Shown here in pieces: positions 424-11,900 of a stretch of DNA of 11,917 nucleotides. Position 1 is the stretch's first letter. The number at the start of each line of letters is the position of its first letter. The notes beneath the pieces are model-generated. The model saw nothing but the letters and a program-made list of their open reading frames with translations. It was not told the origin of the DNA and did no database searches. Origin of the DNA: an uncultured bacterium (GTDB lineage Bacteria; Patescibacteriota; Patescibacteriia; Patescibacteriales; Patescibacteriaceae). Both the position numbers and the translations under genes were made by a program. Where the stretch lies: assembly GCA_937868555.1 (NCBI GenBank), contig CALMNI010000112.1:1-11917 (forward strand), in the 5' to 3' direction.

Positions 424-2049
424 TTAAATTCCCCTAGCCTCACTTTGATCATCCGCCTTAAATTTCTTCCACGGCTTGAGCAGGCGGGTTTTTGCCGCCG
501 TCCATAATTCAAGAAATTCTTCACTTCGCAACAATGAACAAGTACCTAAGTATACAAGAGTACCGAATCCGCCAGCGCTGATGGCTTGCAATGCTACGCC
601 CCAAAAACGTGTTAAATCGGTGTATGGCCAAACCAAGAGCTTCATTGCCTGGATAGCCAACGCGGCCAGAATAGCAGCGGCAGAATATTTTGCTACTGCC
701 TTAAAAATTTTGAATTCATCAAGCGCTCCAAGTTTACGACGCAAGAATACGAACAACAATATAAAATTAAGAATACTGCTTAAAGAAAATCCCAAAGCTA
801 ACCCGGGCGCTCCCCACTTGCGGGCAAAATAAATAGAAAGGGTTACATTAGCTGCCTCAGCTGCAAGTCCAGTGTACAAAGGCGTACGAGAATCATGCTG
901 AGCATAGAAAGACCGAGTAAGCAAAGGCAACGCGGCTTGAGCAAAAAGTGACAGAGCAAAAAATGCCAGCGTATCCATGGTTAATGTTGTTGCATTCCAA
1001 TCAAATTTTCCACTTCCCAAAATAAGCCGAACAATTTGTGCACGCAAACTAACAATCACAACCATTGCTGGGATAATAAAAAATAAAATATGTCGAAATG
1101 TCCGAGAAAATAATTCGATTATTTTTTCGTTAGTTGGCGCTGCGGCCATTAAAGGAAAAACAGCCAGCGCGAAAGAAATGCCAAAAATACTCACCGGGAA
1201 AGTCTGCAAATTATTTGCGAGATTGAAAACTGTTAAAGATCCGGCAGTTAATGTTGACGCGATAACGGTTATAACCATTAAGTTTATTTGGGTAACAGCT
1301 AAGCCAAAAGTTCTAGCACTCATCATTTTGAATATGGAAATAACACCCTTGTCTCTCCACTGAAAAAGGCGCTGGTAGCGGAATCCGAGCCCCCACAACG
1401 TTGGAATTTGAATCAACAAATGAGCAGCTGAACCCATTACAACACCCCATGCCAGGCCGATAATTCCATACTTGGGGGCGAGGAGCAAAGCCCCGACAAT
1501 AATGCCCATGTTATAAAAAATAGGAGAAAGAGAATACACAAAAAAGCGGCGCTGCGATTGAAGAACACTCCCTACAATGCTAGAAATGCCTAGTATAAAA
1601 GGCGATAAGAACATGATACGCGTGAGCTCTATCAATAAAGGACGGGATTCAATGGCAAATCCTGGCGCTATAAAACGTATGAGCCAAGGAGCAAAAATCA
1701 TTCCTAATCCGCAAAGCAAAGCCAAGCCGACCGACATGATATTGATAATATTGCTGGTTAACCGCCAGGCTCGTTCATGTTCGTTCTTGGCTATTAATGC
1801 CGAAAAAACAGGAATAAAACCGGCTGATAATGCACCTAAAACCAATAAATTAAAAATAAGGTCAGGGAACCGAAAAGCCGCATAATATAAATCGAGTGTC
1901 TGTCCGGCTCCAAAGGTTCCCGCTAAAATACGATCTCTCAAGACGCCTAATAACCGGCTAATAATCGATAATGCGGCAATTATCAATGCTGCTCCAGCAA
2001 CTGTTTCCGATGAATTAAAGATGGAAGATAAGATCCTTTTGGACTTCAT
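424..2049 (-). CDS. murJ: MurJ/MviN-family lipid II flippase
   Basis: This 541-residue polytopic membrane protein of the MOP superfamily is expected to move lipid II across the cytoplasmic membrane for peptidoglycan synthesis. The N-terminal hallmark S-R-L-L-G-V-L-R-D at 31-39 matches the first helix of MurJ, with R32 and R38 corresponding to E. coli R18 and R24. It is followed by G-A-G at 47-49 and an F-R-F-P-D-L stretch at 59-64. The helix around 275-299 (F-N-L-A-N-N-L-Q, then G-I-S-F-A-L-A-V-F-P) is the second family hallmark; here N280 stands where E. coli has the essential R270. Length and hydrophobic pattern fit about 14 membrane segments. The ATG overlaps the upstream stop as ATGA, implying translational coupling, and GGAAAG lies 5 bases before it. 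Family assignment is firm; the E. coli-type mechanism is less sure because of N280 and the loss of the R52 equivalent (F66). Confidence 0.93.
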   Translation of the reverse strand: MKSKRILSSIFNSSETVAGAALIIAALSIISRLLGVLRDRILAGTFGAGQTLDLYYAAFRFPDLIFNLLVLGALSAGFIPVFSALIAKNEHERAWRLTSNIINIMSVGLALLCGLGMIFAPWLIRFIAPGFAIESRPLLIELTRIMFLSPFILGISSIVGSVLQSQRRFFVYSLSPIFYNMGIIVGALLLAPKYGIIGLAWGVVMGSAAHLLIQIPTLWGLGFRYQRLFQWRDKGVISIFKMMSARTFGLAVTQINLMVITVIASTLTAGSLTVFNLANNLQTFPVSIFGISFALAVFPLMAAAPTNEKIIELFSRTFRHILFFIIPAMVVIVSLRAQIVRLILGSGKFDWNATTLTMDTLAFFALSLFAQAALPLLTRSFYAQHDSRTPLYTGLAAEAANVTLSIYFARKWGAPGLALGFSLSSILNFILLFVFLRRKLGALDEFKIFKAVAKYSAAAILAALAIQAMKLLVWPYTDLTRFWGVALQAISAGGFGTLVYLGTCSLLRSEEFLELWTAAKTRLLKPWKKFKADDQSEARGI

Positions 2050-3617
2050 ACGGTCTTTCCAGAAAAAAAACTTTTTCCTTTCATCAAGGGGGAAGTCGAA
2101 AGGCCTAAAAATGCCAAAATAGTGGGGGCGACATCAAACAAGGTTCCCGAACAAGGCACTGTACTTAAATCTCCCTCAACCGGTTGCGGCAAGTTAAGAC
2201 TATACCCAGCTAGATCATCACTTATAATTAATAAAGGAAGTGAATTGCTGTTTGAATTCAGATTTGACGCCTGATCATGTAAAGAAATATTTTCCGACCG
2301 GCTGTTACTAGCCGTTACTAACACCGCACCCCCAGCTGAAAGAGCAGCTGTTGTTATTTTTTTTAAATTAATATCTAAAGATGCAAACGCTTCTATAGCA
2401 CCCTCAATGCTTCCTTCAGCGGCTAGCCGATCCAATGCCGGGAAAGTGACAACGATAAAATCGTACTGCTTACTTTCAATTGCTCGTACAACTGAACGTG
2501 CTATTTCATCATTTACCATCGCCGGGTTTTCAGAATATTTTTCTTGAGGCGGAAGAGGAATTAAATCTCTTTCTTCTCCGTTATATGCCGACTCAACTCC
2601 GCCATTTAAAAAAACTGTCGCATCAGCAAAACCTTCACTATCAGAAACCCGTAATTGCCGCAAGCCGGCGCTAGCGATTATCTCACCTACAGATCGATCA
2701 TCCTTAAGCGGAGGCAATAAAGAAATGATATTATGAGCTCCATGAATAGGGCTCAGGCTAACGCAGTCGGCTCTACCGGCAACGGCGAGTTCAACTGAAC
2801 GGGCCAGAGGTGCGATCAAAGTCCCATTAAAGTTAAAAAAGAGCACGCAGTCTCCCTCTTGTACTACCCCCAAGGCCTCTCCCAGAGAATTGCAGAGAGC
2901 CGTTGGAGGAAATTCCTCATCATAAATCTTTTTAGCATATTGATCGCGAAGCGCCTCTTGCGCGGAAATAGCTTGATTTCCTAAACCATTCACAATAGAA
3001 GCGGAAGCCTTATTAATTCGCTCTTCACTGGCATGAGGATCAAGGGCATAAAAACGACCGCACAAGCTTGCTATAGTTACCGCTGAGCCATATTTCTCTT
3101 CAATAGCAGTAATCATAGACTGCGCCGCGTAAGAAGAGGTATCGCGGCCATCAAGAATAGCATGCAAAAAAATTGCACCCACCCCTTTTGTTTGTGCCGC
3201 CGTAATAAGTTGGTCAAGGTGTGCTAAGGAAGATTCTTTTTCAGCGGCCGATAATAAACCGATGAGATGAAGATGGCGCCCTTTTCTAATCATAGAATCA
3301 AAAATGCTTGAATGAAGAGAGCCATGAGCAGAAATATAATCATCAACACGATAACGCGGCACATATGAAGCATTTCCTGCTCCTATAATCGCATGCCCAA
3401 GTTCACTCGTCATAATCGTGCCAGAAGGCAATCCTAAATCTAGCGGGGAAGCGCTTAATGCAAGTGCAGGATAATGGCTTATTAAATGTGTAAGATATGC
3501 CGGCTTTGCCTCAGTAAAAGCATTGCCCGCGTGTGCGGGAGCAATCCCCCACCCTTCAAAAATAGCTAATATAAGAGGGCGAATTCGGGATTTTTTTTTG
3601 TTAGAAGAACGGGGCAT
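2046..3617 (-). CDS. gpmI: Degenerate cofactor-independent phosphoglycerate mutase homologue (probable pseudoenzyme)
   Basis: This 523-residue protein aligns along its full length with iPGM (alkaline phosphatase superfamily), which normally interconverts 3- and 2-phosphoglycerate using two metal ions and a phospho-serine. Retained landmarks are L-G-L-P-S-G (61-66), T-S-E-L-G-H with the phospho-acceptor serine at S71, I-I-G-A-G (77-81), L-D-G-R-D-T (155-160), F-L-N-G-G (336-340), and the end motif D-V-A-P-T-I-L (495-501). Key residues are changed. The first metal Asp (LDGWG) is E21; the Asp-His pair of TADHGN is S437-N438; the His of DMVGH is A400; the His of HTTNPVP falls in a Ser/Asn-rich run at S455. 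Only D396 remains of the other ligands. The substrate contacts corresponding to H123, R261, R264 and K336 are E128, N264, L267 and G329. The frame is open throughout, so this is not a frameshifted pseudogene. It starts 5 bp after pgk, context TATATG, with no close Shine-Dalgarno. Mutase activity is very unlikely. Confidence 0.85.
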   Translation of the reverse strand: MPRSSNKKKSRIRPLILAIFEGWGIAPAHAGNAFTEAKPAYLTHLISHYPALALSASPLDLGLPSGTIMTSELGHAIIGAGNASYVPRYRVDDYISAHGSLHSSIFDSMIRKGRHLHLIGLLSAAEKESSLAHLDQLITAAQTKGVGAIFLHAILDGRDTSSYAAQSMITAIEEKYGSAVTIASLCGRFYALDPHASEERINKASASIVNGLGNQAISAQEALRDQYAKKIYDEEFPPTALCNSLGEALGVVQEGDCVLFFNFNGTLIAPLARSVELAVAGRADCVSLSPIHGAHNIISLLPPLKDDRSVGEIIASAGLRQLRVSDSEGFADATVFLNGGVESAYNGEERDLIPLPPQEKYSENPAMVNDEIARSVVRAIESKQYDFIVVTFPALDRLAAEGSIEGAIEAFASLDINLKKITTAALSAGGAVLVTASNSRSENISLHDQASNLNSNSNSLPLLIISDDLAGYSLNLPQPVEGDLSTVPCSGTLFDVAPTILAFLGLSTSPLMKGKSFFSGKTV

Positions 3618-3622
3618 ATATA

Positions 3623-4684
3623 TTAAGTAATAATTCCTTTCAAGCCAGGCATGGGCGTATTGCTCAGAAATGATAATGAAGCTCCTCCTCCAGTGGAAAT
3701 CCAGCTAAAAGCTTTGGTGCGCTTAAAAAAGCGTATGGCTTCAATTGTTTCGCCACCACCCGCAACCGTAAAAGCACCGCGTGCATGAGCCGCTGCAATA
3801 GCAGTCACTATGCGCTCAGTACCGCGACGTGAATTTTTATTTTCAAAAATTCCCATTGGTCCATTCCAAAAAATAGTTTTGGCATGGGCGATAACTTCTT
3901 CATAGGCGGCAATAGTTGCATCATCTATGTCCGCTAACCGTCGAAGCCTTGAAAGCTGCGGAATTAAAACCTTATTTTTTGGTAAACCATGCCGGCTCGC
4001 CATCAAATCATTGGCCAAATCCCCTCCAACCAAAATGGCCCACGCAAGCGGCAAGAAAGCTTTTATTAAAGGAAGTTTGCTTTTAATTTTCGCTCCTCCG
4101 AAAATTACAACCAAAGGCTTTGCTCCTTTTCCAACTCTCAAAAGTTGTGTAACTTCTTGAGCTAACAAGGGACCGGCATAGGAGGGCAAACATTTTTTTA
4201 TCGCGCTCACCGATGCATGTGCGCGATGAGAAACCGCAAATGCATCATTGATATAGATATCGCCAAGAAGTCCGAGTTTTCGTGCAAAGGAAAGATTGTT
4301 CTTCGTTTCACCTGACCAAAAGCGGATGTTCTCCAAAAACATTATGTCTCCCGTGCGTAGACACTGAGACTGGTACTGTAATTCAGATAAGGTGCCAGAG
4401 GCAACAAATACTCGTCCCCCTAATAATTTCCGTACACGACTGGCAATAGGAGCAACTGAAAGAGCGGGGCTTACTTCATATTCGTCCCGAACAATAGGAT
4501 CGCCAATATGCGTCATAATAATTATTGACGATAGGCGGCGTAAGCGACGCAAGGTCGGAATTACCGCTTGGATCTTATAATCATCGACAATGTGTTTTTT
4601 TTTGAGAGGTACATTTAAGTCAAGGCGAATAAGCAAACGCTTCCCCTGTAATTTTTCGTCTTTGGGCAATAATTTTATCTTCAT
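3623..4684 (-). CDS. pgk: Phosphoglycerate kinase, shortened and with altered active-site residues
   Basis: PGK transfers phosphate from 1,3-bisphosphoglycerate to ADP in glycolysis. Family motifs are R-L-D-L-N-V-P (20-26), T-H-I-G-D-P (58-63), F-L-E-N-I-R-F (116-122), S-H-R-A-H-A-S (152-158), G-G-A-K with K199 and K203 (196-203), W-N-G-P-M-G-I-F-E (273-281) and S-T-G-G-G-A-S (330-336). At 353 residues it is shorter than the usual roughly 390-400. About 39 residues are missing between G-G-D-L-A-N (220-225) and W-N-G-P, in the nucleotide domain. The catalytic Arg of the D-x-R-I motif (R38 in yeast) is K37, the Arg of SHLGRP is D62, and the Asp of GGGDT is a conservative E312. The substrate residues R20, D22, N24, H59, R121 and R154 are kept. 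It may be a weakened kinase or another pseudoenzyme. It sits 6 bp after the PDZ gene and 5 bp before gpmI; start context TGTATG, no Shine-Dalgarno. Confidence 0.92.
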   Translation of the reverse strand: MKIKLLPKDEKLQGKRLLIRLDLNVPLKKKHIVDDYKIQAVIPTLRRLRRLSSIIIMTHIGDPIVRDEYEVSPALSVAPIASRVRKLLGGRVFVASGTLSELQYQSQCLRTGDIMFLENIRFWSGETKNNLSFARKLGLLGDIYINDAFAVSHRAHASVSAIKKCLPSYAGPLLAQEVTQLLRVGKGAKPLVVIFGGAKIKSKLPLIKAFLPLAWAILVGGDLANDLMASRHGLPKNKVLIPQLSRLRRLADIDDATIAAYEEVIAHAKTIFWNGPMGIFENKNSRRGTERIVTAIAAAHARGAFTVAGGGETIEAIRFFKRTKAFSWISTGGGASLSFLSNTPMPGLKGIIT

Positions 4685-4690
4685 ACAAAT

Positions 4691-5761
4691 TTATTTTTTT
4701 GGCACTTCATCAAGAACAACTGTTACTTCTTTGGTTTCATTCTGTCGAATAAATTTAATATGGAGAGAATCACCGGGTGTATATTCTTCTAATAGTCCCG
4801 AAAGATCAACCGACGGTCCTACGGCTACCCCATCCAAAGAAATAATCCTGTCGCCTGCGCGCAGGCCGGACTTATCCGCAGGACTTCCCTTTACAATAGC
4901 CGCTGAAGAGCCATTCCCTATTAACGCACCGGCGGCGGCGGCGTTTCCTTTATCGACATTAACATAGTAAATGCCCAAACGCGCTCGATTGATTTTATTA
5001 TCTGTCAAAAGTTTTGCCAGCATTGCTTTTACAGAATCCATCGCTATCACTACATGACCCCTGCTTATTCCAGCGATTCGGCCGTTGCCATCAAATAATG
5101 CGATGTTCCTTTCTCCTATACCAGAAACTGATAATTCCAGCGAAGCTTCCTCTGAAGAACGGTGGCCAAGAGATTGATGAGATAAAATCCCACGTTCTAC
5201 AACCCCCTGCCATTCTAAACCGTACAATTCTTGTCCTATTAATAAATCCTGACTTAAAATAAAATCACGAACGGTTAGTTTGTCAGCCTTAGCGATATGA
5301 ATAAAATTAAATTTTCCAGCCGCTCCGGTCAGCACCCTGTCAATTGAATATACGCGCCTATCGTTAGCGACAACTACCATATCAGACCATTGGCCATTTT
5401 TATCAACAGGAATATCGGTTACTGTCGCCAACCACCCATCGGCCGTTACGGTAATAGCTTGGCCTAGTTTGTCCTTGGGAAGATATAAAGGAGAATCACC
5501 AGGCACACGCTTAAAAATCCCGCTGAGACTGCTTTCCGCGTCAGCGACACTAAAAACTGGATTTATTACATTATTTTTTGGCCCTTGCCGAACAACAATA
5601 GTCCCAGCGTTAGGAGCGACTAAATAATTTCCAGCAGCAATACCATAATATTTATCAAGCAAATAAATAAAAATCCAATTGCCTAAAATACCTCCAATAA
5701 AACCAGCAAAAAGAATAAGGACAGTAATAAGCCAAAAAGTGCTTCGTTGCGAAATTTTCAT
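4691..5761 (-). CDS. Membrane-anchored HtrA/DegP-like protein with PDZ domain and lost catalytic triad
   Basis: This 356-residue protein has one N-terminal membrane segment (about 8-28), a linker, a trypsin-like beta-rich region (about 95-250) and a C-terminal PDZ domain (about 275-350, with G-S-P-A-D-K-S-G-L-R-A-G-D-R at 292-305). The order matches HtrA/DegP proteases anchored outside the membrane. The triad is not there. The His of the usual TNNHV motif is D116 in the run G-W-L-A-T-V-T-D; the Asp of the DxAVL strand is N152; the GNSGGPL nucleophile loop is replaced by G-E-R-N-I-A-L (216-222), with R218 at the Ser position and no oxyanion glycines. The following strand, G-R-I-A-G-I-S (227-233), still matches the family. 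It is probably a non-proteolytic binding or scaffold protein. It lies 8 bp after the membrane-protein gene; start context CCTATG, no Shine-Dalgarno. Confidence 0.8.
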   Translation of the reverse strand: MKISQRSTFWLITVLILFAGFIGGILGNWIFIYLLDKYYGIAAGNYLVAPNAGTIVVRQGPKNNVINPVFSVADAESSLSGIFKRVPGDSPLYLPKDKLGQAITVTADGWLATVTDIPVDKNGQWSDMVVVANDRRVYSIDRVLTGAAGKFNFIHIAKADKLTVRDFILSQDLLIGQELYGLEWQGVVERGILSHQSLGHRSSEEASLELSVSGIGERNIALFDGNGRIAGISRGHVVIAMDSVKAMLAKLLTDNKINRARLGIYYVNVDKGNAAAAGALIGNGSSAAIVKGSPADKSGLRAGDRIISLDGVAVGPSVDLSGLLEEYTPGDSLHIKFIRQNETKEVTVVLDEVPKK

Positions 5762-5769
5762 AGGCTATC

Positions 5770-6522
5770 TTAAAGCCAGCGCGCCGTTAAAAAAACAGCG
5801 AGCCAGGTAATAATTATGAGGCCGGCGAGAATTTGGAAACGCCGCGTATCAGCATTCCCGCCTTGTTGTTGTGAGATTAAAGAAACCGCAATGTAATAAA
5901 CCGTCACCACTAAAAAACCCAGGATTCTAAAATCAAGAGGAAAAAATCCCGCTACTAAAAATATTTCTAAGGTAACAAGGCTAACAATAAGCGCTGCCCG
6001 CCAACCCTGTGCCAAAGCTAACCGACTGTTCCACAGCCATTGCCATAATATTACAAAAATCAAGAAACAAAAGACTATGCCAATGAACCACGAAGGGACA
6101 TCAAGGAATGTTTTCAAGCCATAAGCGCCGGCTGCCAAAAAAAACACTGTTAAAAAATTTAAAGCAAAACAAAGACGCTCAAGGCTAAAAGGAATGTAGC
6201 TGCGGATATGACTCGTATATGCCAATGCATACTGCCAATATAAAAATTCTAAAGCAACCACTACTGCTAACAGCAGAATTGTTGATATTCCCTGAGGAAC
6301 CAAAAGGCAATAAATTAAAGTTGAAGCGCCTAATAAAAAAGGCGTAACGGCAAAGCGCCACCAATCATTACCATCAGTATCCAATCCTTGCGCGGCCAGC
6401 GCATAGATAAAAGCTAAAGCTAATACAATCCATCCGATATGATTCGGGGCAACATAGCACCAAGTGAACAAAGCAACACTCAATGCCAAAATAAAAGGAG
6501 AAATAAATAAACGTAGATTCAT
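5770..6522 (-). CDS. Polytopic membrane protein of unknown function
   Basis: The protein has 250 residues, almost entirely hydrophobic, with about eight or nine predicted membrane segments separated by short loops and few charged residues. I recognise no catalytic motif or transporter signature. A Trp/Arg-containing loop (near 54-58, D-W-W-R-F) and the Q-Q-Q-G-G-N loop (about 219-224) are the most polar parts. The ATG at 6522 was chosen because it lies 2 bp after the upstream stop and has the AGTATG context shared by its neighbours. A TTG at 6540 would add six residues and overlap the previous gene by 16 bp. Tight coupling to the 129-residue anchored protein upstream suggests the two may act together in the membrane (inference). 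Confidence 0.75.
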   Translation of the reverse strand: MNLRLFISPFILALSVALFTWCYVAPNHIGWIVLALAFIYALAAQGLDTDGNDWWRFAVTPFLLGASTLIYCLLVPQGISTILLLAVVVALEFLYWQYALAYTSHIRSYIPFSLERLCFALNFLTVFFLAAGAYGLKTFLDVPSWFIGIVFCFLIFVILWQWLWNSRLALAQGWRAALIVSLVTLEIFLVAGFFPLDFRILGFLVVTVYYIAVSLISQQQGGNADTRRFQILAGLIIITWLAVFLTARWL

Positions 6523-6524
6523 AC

Positions 6525-6914
6525 TTAAGATTTTAACCAAGGATAGCTCGCGTATAACTGAAAAAGAAGATTTTCTGCCGTGCCGTTCTTAGACTTAAGT
6601 GCATCAGCAATTTGCACTAAGCGAAAATGAAGATCGCGATTATCTTTAGTAACCAAGAGGGCTAACAGATGAGTTCGGCGGGCTTCTATATCTATTTCGC
6701 CTTCATTTTGAATCGCTGCCTCATAATCCCGCACGGCCGATCGCGCTTCTTCTCTATAATCGTCAGAAGTCGTAAGGGTCTCTGCGGTAATATTCTGAGC
6801 TGGCTCATCATGCCATATTAACCGGACGCTGACAAGACCGCCCATAATCACCAAAGCGATCAAAGCGGAATAGAAAAATTTCTTTCTGCTATTGAACAAT
6901 TTCGGTTTTAACAT
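6525..6914 (-). CDS. Small single-pass membrane protein with helical extracytoplasmic domain, unknown function
   Basis: The 129-residue protein has a positively charged N-terminus (R10, K11, K12) and one membrane segment at about 14-33, consistent with the inside-positive rule and an outward-facing C-terminal domain. Residues about 50-125 are rich in Ala, Leu, Glu and Arg and should be mostly alpha-helical, perhaps a small helical bundle. I recognise no family. It overlaps the end of the beta-propeller lipoprotein gene by 26 bp and stops 2 bp before the next membrane protein, so it is probably translationally coupled to both. The start context is CGTATG and no Shine-Dalgarno is visible. A role as a partner of the adjacent membrane protein or lipoprotein is a guess from position. 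Confidence 0.75.
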   Translation of the reverse strand: MLKPKLFNSRKKFFYSALIALVIMGGLVSVRLIWHDEPAQNITAETLTTSDDYREEARSAVRDYEAAIQNEGEIDIEARRTHLLALLVTKDNRDLHFRLVQIADALKSKNGTAENLLFQLYASYPWLKS

Positions 6915-10583: not shown

Positions 10584-11900
10584 TCATGGAAGAGCAATGA
10601 TTTCAGCACAGACCGCTTCGGCATTGCCATGGATTCGACCCTCACGAGCCTCTATAGAGGTCGTGGGTAATAAATTACGAATTCCGCCCAAGAACGCCAC
10701 TGTTTCACCGCTGAAGGCGAAAAAATTACGATCTATAAATGAATATTCCGTATCGGTATCAGAATTATGAATAGTAGGCACAGGAATCTCGGGCTGAAGC
10801 ACATAACCGCCTCGCTGCCTGATTCCAGCTCTTAGTGACTTGCGAAAACGGCCATCACTTAAAGAACCCCTGATATGTCCATAACATCCGTAAACACCTT
10901 TCATTGGCTTAGCGCGTAATTGAAGATTACCATTACGAATTGACTCAACGTCAATCTCCGATGCATTAAGAAAAGTTATAAATTTCTCATGCAAAGATTC
11001 GCCAATAAATTCTAGGTACGGTTTTCCTTTGCCTACATGATTAAGCATTTCCTCGGAAAATATATCAGCCTCAGAATAGACACTGAAGGCGCTTTTCATT
11101 ATAGGTAAATACTCTTTTGTATCATTAATCATGACATCAAAATTCCCTGTCGGCGGATCAATATTAATGGTTAACGTATTAGCTTTAATAATTTTTCTAA
11201 TTTTTCCATCCTGCAATAAAGGGTGCGAAATTTCTACAGCTGGATTCTTTAACTTATGCACGGGATTTGAGCTGCGCACAAATAAAAGATATTCACAGTT
11301 GTTTGAATTTTCTTTTAGGTGTTTTCGAAAATCTTCGGGCCCCATAAAAGCATCAAAACCCGATATTTCCAAAATTTCCTCATTACTAAGAGACTCTCCA
11401 TTTTCTTTTCCAAATTCACATTCTCTCATGCTGTAAAATTTTTCTTCAGTAACAGCTAATAAAGCTATGGGTTTACCGAATTTAGCTCTAACAGCAGATA
11501 AAACAGCACGAAAGCGAGACTTTAAGAAAGATTCTTCCCCACCAACATTTTGAATAATTTGGTAAGCACCAAAAGAGTTTTCGAATTCGAAAATTTTCCC
11601 ACGAAGTTTGGAAATTAAGTCATCTTCCGACAATTCCAAAGAGGCTTTTAGAAATTCTTTATCTAAACCAGCCATATCAATTCTAACTATGGGACTGACG
11701 TGGCCTGCAGGACCAACACAGTATTGATAATCAGACTCATGCTCTTTATTTTTATGAGTCAGAATGTCAAAAGCTTTATTATAGTCGAGACAAATTTGGC
11801 TTAGAGCATTAATAAGAGGTGTAGTGTAAATAACATTGTAGTGCGGCAGGGTTAAAAAAGCCCCCGATAGAAATTTGGAATAATTTTTTGGAACAATCAT
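10584..11900 (-). CDS. Unrecognised 438-residue protein, C-terminus possibly ATP-grasp-like; 5' end may be outside window
   Basis: I do not recognise this protein's family. It has no signal peptide or clear membrane segment and appears cytoplasmic. The middle has a strand-like run F-G-K-P-I-A-L-L-A-V (141-150) and long charged helices. The C-terminal 110 residues carry the most conserved-looking pattern: L-R-A-K-P-M-K-G (328-335), Y-G-H-I-R-G-S (340-346), Y-V-L-Q-P-E-I-P-V-P (366-375), F-I-D-R-N-F (388-393), G-G-I-R (405-408) and G-R-I-H-G-N (421-426). A Lys-Pro-Gly start, a Y-x-x-Q hinge and later Arg and Asn residues recall the C-terminal lobe of circularly permuted ATP-grasp ligases; this is a tentative inference. 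The ATG at 11900 is preceded by in-frame sense codons to the window edge, so the true start may lie further right. It is a separate unit, closed by the stem-loop at 10526-10558. Confidence 0.7.
   Translation of the reverse strand: MIVPKNYSKFLSGAFLTLPHYNVIYTTPLINALSQICLDYNKAFDILTHKNKEHESDYQYCVGPAGHVSPIVRIDMAGLDKEFLKASLELSEDDLISKLRGKIFEFENSFGAYQIIQNVGGEESFLKSRFRAVLSAVRAKFGKPIALLAVTEEKFYSMRECEFGKENGESLSNEEILEISGFDAFMGPEDFRKHLKENSNNCEYLLFVRSSNPVHKLKNPAVEISHPLLQDGKIRKIIKANTLTINIDPPTGNFDVMINDTKEYLPIMKSAFSVYSEADIFSEEMLNHVGKGKPYLEFIGESLHEKFITFLNASEIDVESIRNGNLQLRAKPMKGVYGCYGHIRGSLSDGRFRKSLRAGIRQRGGYVLQPEIPVPTIHNSDTDTEYSFIDRNFFAFSGETVAFLGGIRNLLPTTSIEAREGRIHGNAEAVCAEIIALP

Follow-up and report, generated by a model that had tools for sequence, protein, structure and literature searches.

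Loss of active-site residues in an iPGM homologue of Patescibacteriales points to a likely pseudoenzyme descended from the second gene of a tandem gpmI pair

The stretch of DNA analyzed here (contig CALMNI010000112.1 of assembly GCA_937868555.1, 11,917 nucleotides; hereafter the window) comes from an uncultured bacterium of the order Patescibacteriales and carries a gene for a homologue of the phosphoglycerate mutase iPGM. This protein, P0001, is probably an iPGM pseudoenzyme that was freed from the mutase job and persists as a partner, without catalysis, of the proteins encoded next to it in the operon. The proposal builds on the substitutions in the active site, the open frame, a gpmA gene elsewhere in the genome, the best match of P0001 to gpmI copy 2, and the recurrent loss of ligands at the same locus in other genera. 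Judged from its sequence, P0001 likely has no catalytic activity; a lost catalytic apparatus in a fold that is predicted to be kept likely makes it a pseudoenzyme by definition. Its job is probably that of a scaffold or regulator, with a partner that we infer from the gene neighbourhood. Below, G-numbers denote genomes of relatives, L-numbers loci, and f-numbers families of the order.

The frame of P0001 runs uninterrupted from ATG to stop (523 residues, 2046–3617, minus strand), and its domain layout, a Metalloenzyme core with an inserted iPGM_N domain, is that of the ~510-aa iPGM (GpmI). Both Pfam domains exceeded their cut-offs (iPGM_N, 123.3 bits; Metalloenzyme, 108.2 bits), as expected for the full-length iPGM homologue described in a first-pass annotation of the window; on these domains alone, the gene would be annotated as gpmI. 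The NCBIfam equivalog TIGR01307, aligned to residues 14–517, reached 293.5 bits and thus stayed below its cut-off of 330.65. A structure model predicted the iPGM fold, with pLDDT values below 50 at residues 447–453.

Active-site residues are numbered according to the B. stearothermophilus iPGM 1EJJ and were read from the alignment. The letters were checked; which residues of 1EJJ count as ligands follows the literature and the first-pass annotation. At the metal positions (D12, S62, D403, H407, D444, H445, and H462), P0001 carries E, S, D, A, S, N, and S, i.e. two of seven ligands are kept and five are replaced. The pocket positions (H123, R153, D154, R185, R191, R261, R264, and K336) are occupied by E, R, D, R, P, N, L, and G, with three of eight kept and five replaced. 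The first-pass annotation had listed E21, A400, S437, N438, and S455 at metal positions and E128, N264, L267, and G329 in the pocket, and had noted the retention of S71 and D396. All of these agree with the 1EJJ alignment, and counting from the start of the open reading frame (ORF) confirms the codon positions it had listed for E21, S437, and N438. The alignment adds the loss of R191 (P194 in P0001) and the retention of R153, D154, and R185; at the sequence level, no substitute Asp or His is visible at the metal positions.

For comparison, 56 relatives were picked from 137 full-length ORFs in 80 loci. All 15 active-site columns were invariant in 56/56 relatives. P0001 was changed at 10 of these 15 columns, whereas among the 50 remaining columns without any variation it was changed at 14 (Fisher p = 0.013); relaxing the conservation threshold to 95% or 90% gave a p-value of 0.044 or 0.057. 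We consider it very unlikely that P0001 is still a phosphoglycerate mutase tolerating its substitutions, whose site other parts of the protein might complete. Its full length, the retention of the phosphoserine position and of some pocket residues, and its standing as the only iPGM-family gene found in the genome would fit such an enzyme, but three His and one Asp ligand, all invariant in the 56 relatives, have become Ala, Asn, Ser, and Ser, and the genome holds a canonical gpmA. This second mutase gene (236 aa, on contig C82) belongs to a family other than iPGM and has the usual motifs of a canonical gpmA. The draft metagenome-assembled genome (MAG) that includes the window comprises 1.016 Mb in 202 contigs and is 94.44% complete; P0001 is the sole PF01676 gene found in it, and a gpmI copy 1 was not found there. 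GAPDH is present; for enolase, a short piece within a frame of 47 aa, which probably lies where a contig ends, was all that was found.

Three other members of the window's genus (G001, G002, and G003) carry the gene in the same gene order, and the frame is open in all four members; no stop-broken copy was seen. The common changes comprise (i) E at D12; (ii) E at H123; (iii) Ser or Thr at D444; and (iv) the loss of R261, R264, and K336. Both Glu residues occur in 4/4 members. These shared replacements argue against sequencing error in the window, and assembly error as the cause of the loss was rejected on the same grounds. An artefact of sequencing, assembly, or alignment could be suspected in a draft MAG of 202 contigs, but with a single clean frame and many replacements shared by three further genomes it is hardly credible. 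The claim of the first-pass annotation that the fold was kept without the chemistry is supported by the predicted structure, the ligand table, and the open frames. Its pseudoenzyme proposal is likewise upheld, while for the structural, regulatory, or ligand-binding role that it suggested we, too, can only infer. Elsewhere in family f1, the full-length copy of G005 keeps one of seven metal ligands; G009 has a divergent match, and the copy of G012 is cut by a contig end.

The site might also have been rebuilt, e.g. into a one-metal sulfatase-like or phosphatase-like hydrolase acting through E21, S71, D396, and N438. S71 and D396 are kept, the Glu residues at D12 and H123 are conserved in 4/4 genus members, and one His-rich site persists in G001–G003; N438 lies where sulfatases carry Asn. 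Against this, the four genus members have no metal-ligand set in common, the short forms of the order described below keep at most four of seven ligands, and a Pfam search of the P0001 sequence found no sulfatase domain up to an E-value of 1. Such a changed enzyme therefore appears quite improbable. Matches to SGSH_C in some relatives were weak and below cut-off.

The order survey covered 111 genomes, 14 of them outside the gpmA search; named relatives in the genome collection were mostly Candidatus Falkowbacteria, Magasanikbacteria, and other Patescibacteria. In this order of Falkowbacteria type, the usual block in the loci read is, with local variation, o256-htrA-pgk-eno-gpmI1-gpmI2, often accompanied by pilT, a beta-propeller gene, and murJ. 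Both tandem gpmI genes were readable in 17 genomes, with every metal ligand present and the pocket complete except in G079 copy 1 (alignment gap at R153/D154) and G016 copy 2 (L at R153); two more genomes were partly readable. Tandem pairs of full-length, ligand-intact gpmI genes behind eno occur in many genomes of the order (e.g. L043, L044, L055, and L067). In every complete reading of copy 1, the seven metal ligands are all present.

In the f1 and f8 loci read, gpmI copy 1 was not seen. There, gpmI2 mostly persists in a ligand-poor state, either full-length, as in the window's genus, or as a ~300-aa core without the transferase domain. In all, 44 genomes of the order yielded such short forms (262–365 aa): (i) 37 of the 39 f8 genomes; (ii) G006, G007, and G010 of f1; (iii) G026, G041, and G049 of f15; and (iv) G081 of f13. 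None of the 44 has all seven metal ligands; six have four and the others fewer, the S62 column being alignment-dependent. The short forms of f15 and f13 lie directly behind a ligand-intact gpmI1. A further metal loss was observed in G040 (L074:8133-9698), where a full-length copy 2 carries I, T, P, F, and N at S62, H407, D444, H445, and H462 behind an intact copy 1. This shared and recurrent loss across the order, tied to a tandem gene pair, goes beyond what the first-pass annotation could know. Among the matches listed in a class-wide search, the only short iPGM outside the order was that of G158, from another order (L235:4819-5751): a 311-aa core without the transferase domain. As it keeps all seven ligands, we regard it as a different case; it could be a phosphatase.

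All 51 scored rows (44 short and seven full-length forms, G008 among the latter) are closer matches to copy 2 than to copy 1. Of these 51 rows, which are dead, short, or copy-2-like, 14 were among the 35 rows of a careful tree; G005 and the short forms of G006, G007, and G010 were left out. All 14 fell into the copy-2 branch (100/98) and formed one clade (96/94), in which G008 was the sister of the window's genus (96/87). Of the nine short forms in the tree, eight made up a clade of their own (99/99), with G081 outside. In a quick tree of 78 rows, 26 rows formed one clade beside the intact copy 2 rows (97). This clade was mostly unresolved inside, including the positions of G007 and of the G006/G010 pair; two pieces of a split copy in G061, contig-cut G043 and G012, and partial G011 were left out. 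Because the ligand-intact G008 is the sister of the window's genus, the loss in this genus would be separate from that of the short forms, and metals would have been lost at least twice if the placement of G008 holds. Branches are long, and such placements are unsure. Stages of the process stand side by side in the relatives, from the intact tandem pair through the eroded pocket of G008 and the partial metal loss of G001–G003 to the window.

In most genomes, the loss of ligands is accompanied by another mutase. Matches to gpmA above cut-off were found in 12 of 13 f1 genomes (in two pieces in G005 and G011), in 27 of 39 f8 genomes, including both without a short form, and in G026 and G049 of f15. 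Nine of the remaining 12 f8 genomes have a separate full-length iPGM; its ligands were read in all of these but G105 and are intact in the eight. Among the 40 genomes of the order with full-length gpmI only (ligands read in 19 of them), none has gpmA above cut-off. As genomes within a family are not independent, this pattern stands for a few events and not for some 90. It offers a natural test of what selection keeps once the chemistry is unneeded. A separate gpmA has probably taken over the mutase step and thereby freed the gpmI2 descendant from catalysis; the ligand-poor protein would then have been retained as a partner of PGK, and of enolase in relatives. A second job is suggested because gpmI1, ligand-intact where read complete, is no longer seen in f1 and f8 while the ligand-poor gpmI2 line stayed. 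In the window's genus, PGK is the direct neighbour of the iPGM-like gene.

Alternatively, P0001 could be a slowly decaying relic whose frame stays open mainly through translational coupling to murJ in a tight operon. The 4-base overlap with murJ and the gap of 5 bases to pgk fit this idea, as do the long end branches and the low conservation: the closest relatives known for P0001 are at most 38% identical, and by a separate count, identity to G001, G002, and G003 is 40, 34, and 36%. The latter is well below that of murJ (62, 63, and 60%), lower than that of pgk (45, 43, and 48%), and similar to that of the HtrA-like neighbour (39, 38, and 40%). The locus enolase is eroding, too. Catalytic positions are changed in 11 of 42 rows (L040, L042, L110, L119, L120, L121, and others), with column S42 set aside since it is Ala in canonical rows and its anchor is off by one; each of the 11 genomes has another enolase gene outside the locus, with a better score. 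Yet where dS was finite, in three of six short-form pairs, the ratio of nonsynonymous to synonymous substitution rates (dN/dS) was 0.06 (G091/G053), 0.18 (G006/G010), and 0.18 (G019/G047, with a dS of 1.9); the other three pairs were saturated. Moreover, the f8 loci read have no murJ directly downstream, and their short forms nevertheless persist in nearly every genome. When random drift was simulated from the G008 gene to 80% identity, none of 200 runs kept an open frame, which suggests that the frame of P0001 is kept by selection, either on the protein or on coupled translation. The structure model is also confident, though aided by aligned intact relatives. On balance, we regard slow decay as unlikely.

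Several observations weigh against a retained non-catalytic partner. (i) Within the window gene, D12E is a conservative change, and S62, D403, R153, D154, and R185 are kept. The excess of loss at the active site is modest over the whole range of p-values, as many other conserved columns changed too, and a dN/dS test on this gene is not meaningful since dS among genus members is saturated or nearly so. (ii) Among close relatives, G001–G003 retain D403, H407, H445, and H462, so that metal could still bind there; in f1, G008 keeps all metal ligands while having lost H123, D154, R261, and R264, and all readable ligands are intact in G011, of which only the C-terminal part is visible. (iii) As for replacement, no other mutase was found in G095, G098, and G104 (f8) or in G010 (f1), and in G040, G041, and G081 the ligand-poor copy 2 stands beside an intact copy 1 with no gpmA above cut-off. 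(iv) In G074, G106, and G004, no gpmI-type match was found at all, which suggests that the gene is dispensable in some lineages and could also be expected under slow decay. (v) Finally, PGK may not be the partner, because G062 has an enolase-like/short-form pair away from pgk, with an eroded enolase copy, and the stretch examined in G068 shows no pgk; eno is not in the block of the window's genus.

A more specific and rather speculative version of a retained partner, to which we give little weight, holds that copy 2 served as a structural subunit in an assembly of lower glycolysis even before the active copy was discarded upon replacement, the subunit staying on and acting, in the window's genome, like a prozyme. 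The other members of the assembly would be PGK and enolase, and the operon's protease-dead HtrA/PDZ membrane protein might provide an anchor. With gpmA or a second iPGM taking the mutase step, the subunit would have lost its metals at least twice and been whittled to a core in f8, and P0001 would support a PGK that lost a stretch of its nucleotide-binding domain.

The features of the window are collected in Table 1. Its pgk is the only PGK gene in the genome. The encoded protein is ~45 residues shorter than the T. maritima PGK near residues 222–293 (27 residues against about 72 in T. maritima) and has DIDDAT in place of the usual DIGPxT; the same region is shortened in G003, not in G001 or G002. 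In the HtrA-like protein, neither the catalytic His region nor the GNSGG Ser motif was seen, and the same holds for all 32 rows aligned from the order, that of the window among them. The conserved block hence carries a predicted protease-dead protein. The window also contains genes for a 741-aa beta-propeller protein (PF09826; 6889–9114), which is part of this block in several loci of f1 and f8, and for a 438-aa protein (10584–11900) that matched neither Pfam nor NCBIfam models at the thresholds applied.

Table 1. Positions of the iPGM-derived gene, its informative codons, and neighbouring genes in the window
Feature	Coordinates	Strand	Basis
iPGM-derived protein, likely pseudoenzyme, gpmI copy 2 descendant, 523 aa	2046..3617	-	ORF, Pfam, NCBIfam, alignment, tree
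iPGM_N (transferase) domain, residues 104-263; kept here, absent from f8 short forms	2829..3308	-	Pfam
E21 codon at metal ligand D12, conservative change	3555..3557	-	alignment
S71 codon, retained phosphoserine position S62	3405..3407	-	alignment
E128 codon at pocket H123; Glu in 4/4 genus members	3234..3236	-	alignment
N264...L267 codons at pocket R261 and R264	2817..2828	-	alignment
G329 codon at pocket K336	2631..2633	-	alignment
D396 (D403, kept) to A400 (H407)	2418..2432	-	alignment
S437 and N438 codons at D444 and H445	2304..2309	-	alignment
Ser/Asn-rich loop, residues 447-457, replacing H462 loop (S455)	2247..2279	-	sequence and model
murJ, next gene downstream; 4-base overlap of its start with the iPGM stop	424..2049	-	Pfam, NCBIfam
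pgk, directly upstream of iPGM-like gene, 353 aa, internal deletion	3623..4684	-	Pfam, alignment
HtrA-like protein with PDZ domain, conserved-block member	4691..5761	-	Pfam, alignment
256-aa protein of conserved block, no Pfam match	5770..6540	-	ORF, Pfam

Pseudoenzymes as a class are already known. Among the titles and abstracts that searches of an open-access library listed, including searches on mutases in the candidate phyla radiation (CPR) and Falkowbacteria, we found no report of an iPGM-derived one. Jaffe et al. 2020 (PMC7304191) report that PGM is absent in several shallow Parcubacteria clades; possibly, such absences stem from forms too divergent for the threshold of that study.

Compared with iPGM/GpmI (1EJJ, 4MY4; TIGR01307), P0001 is alike in length, in both Pfam domains, in its predicted fold, and in the phosphoserine position; it differs in the replaced metal ligands and pocket residues and in its score below the TIGR01307 cut-off. 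With the ~300-aa gpmI2 descendants of f8 it shares the slot after pgk/eno, the best match to copy 2, and the loss of metal ligands. Unlike these, it is full-length with its transferase domain, and its loss is placed apart in the tree. The dead PGK-like proteins of kinetoplastids, with the T. brucei prozyme the nearest published cases, are likewise homologues of a glycolytic enzyme that are predicted to be inactive and still retained (PMC7729029), but they derive from another enzyme, occur in eukaryotes, and are encoded by separate genes and not in an operon slot. In cyanobacterial PirC-iPGAM, iPGM is regulated through protein-protein contact (PMC12077085); there, however, iPGM is the active target and PirC the regulator. 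The AdoMetDC-prozyme of Trypanosoma brucei, reported as a catalytically dead paralogue that regulates an active enzyme (PMC5201418), may by analogy serve as a model of how P0001 would work, with the difference that the partner here is a putative one and that no gpmI1 was found in the window's genome.

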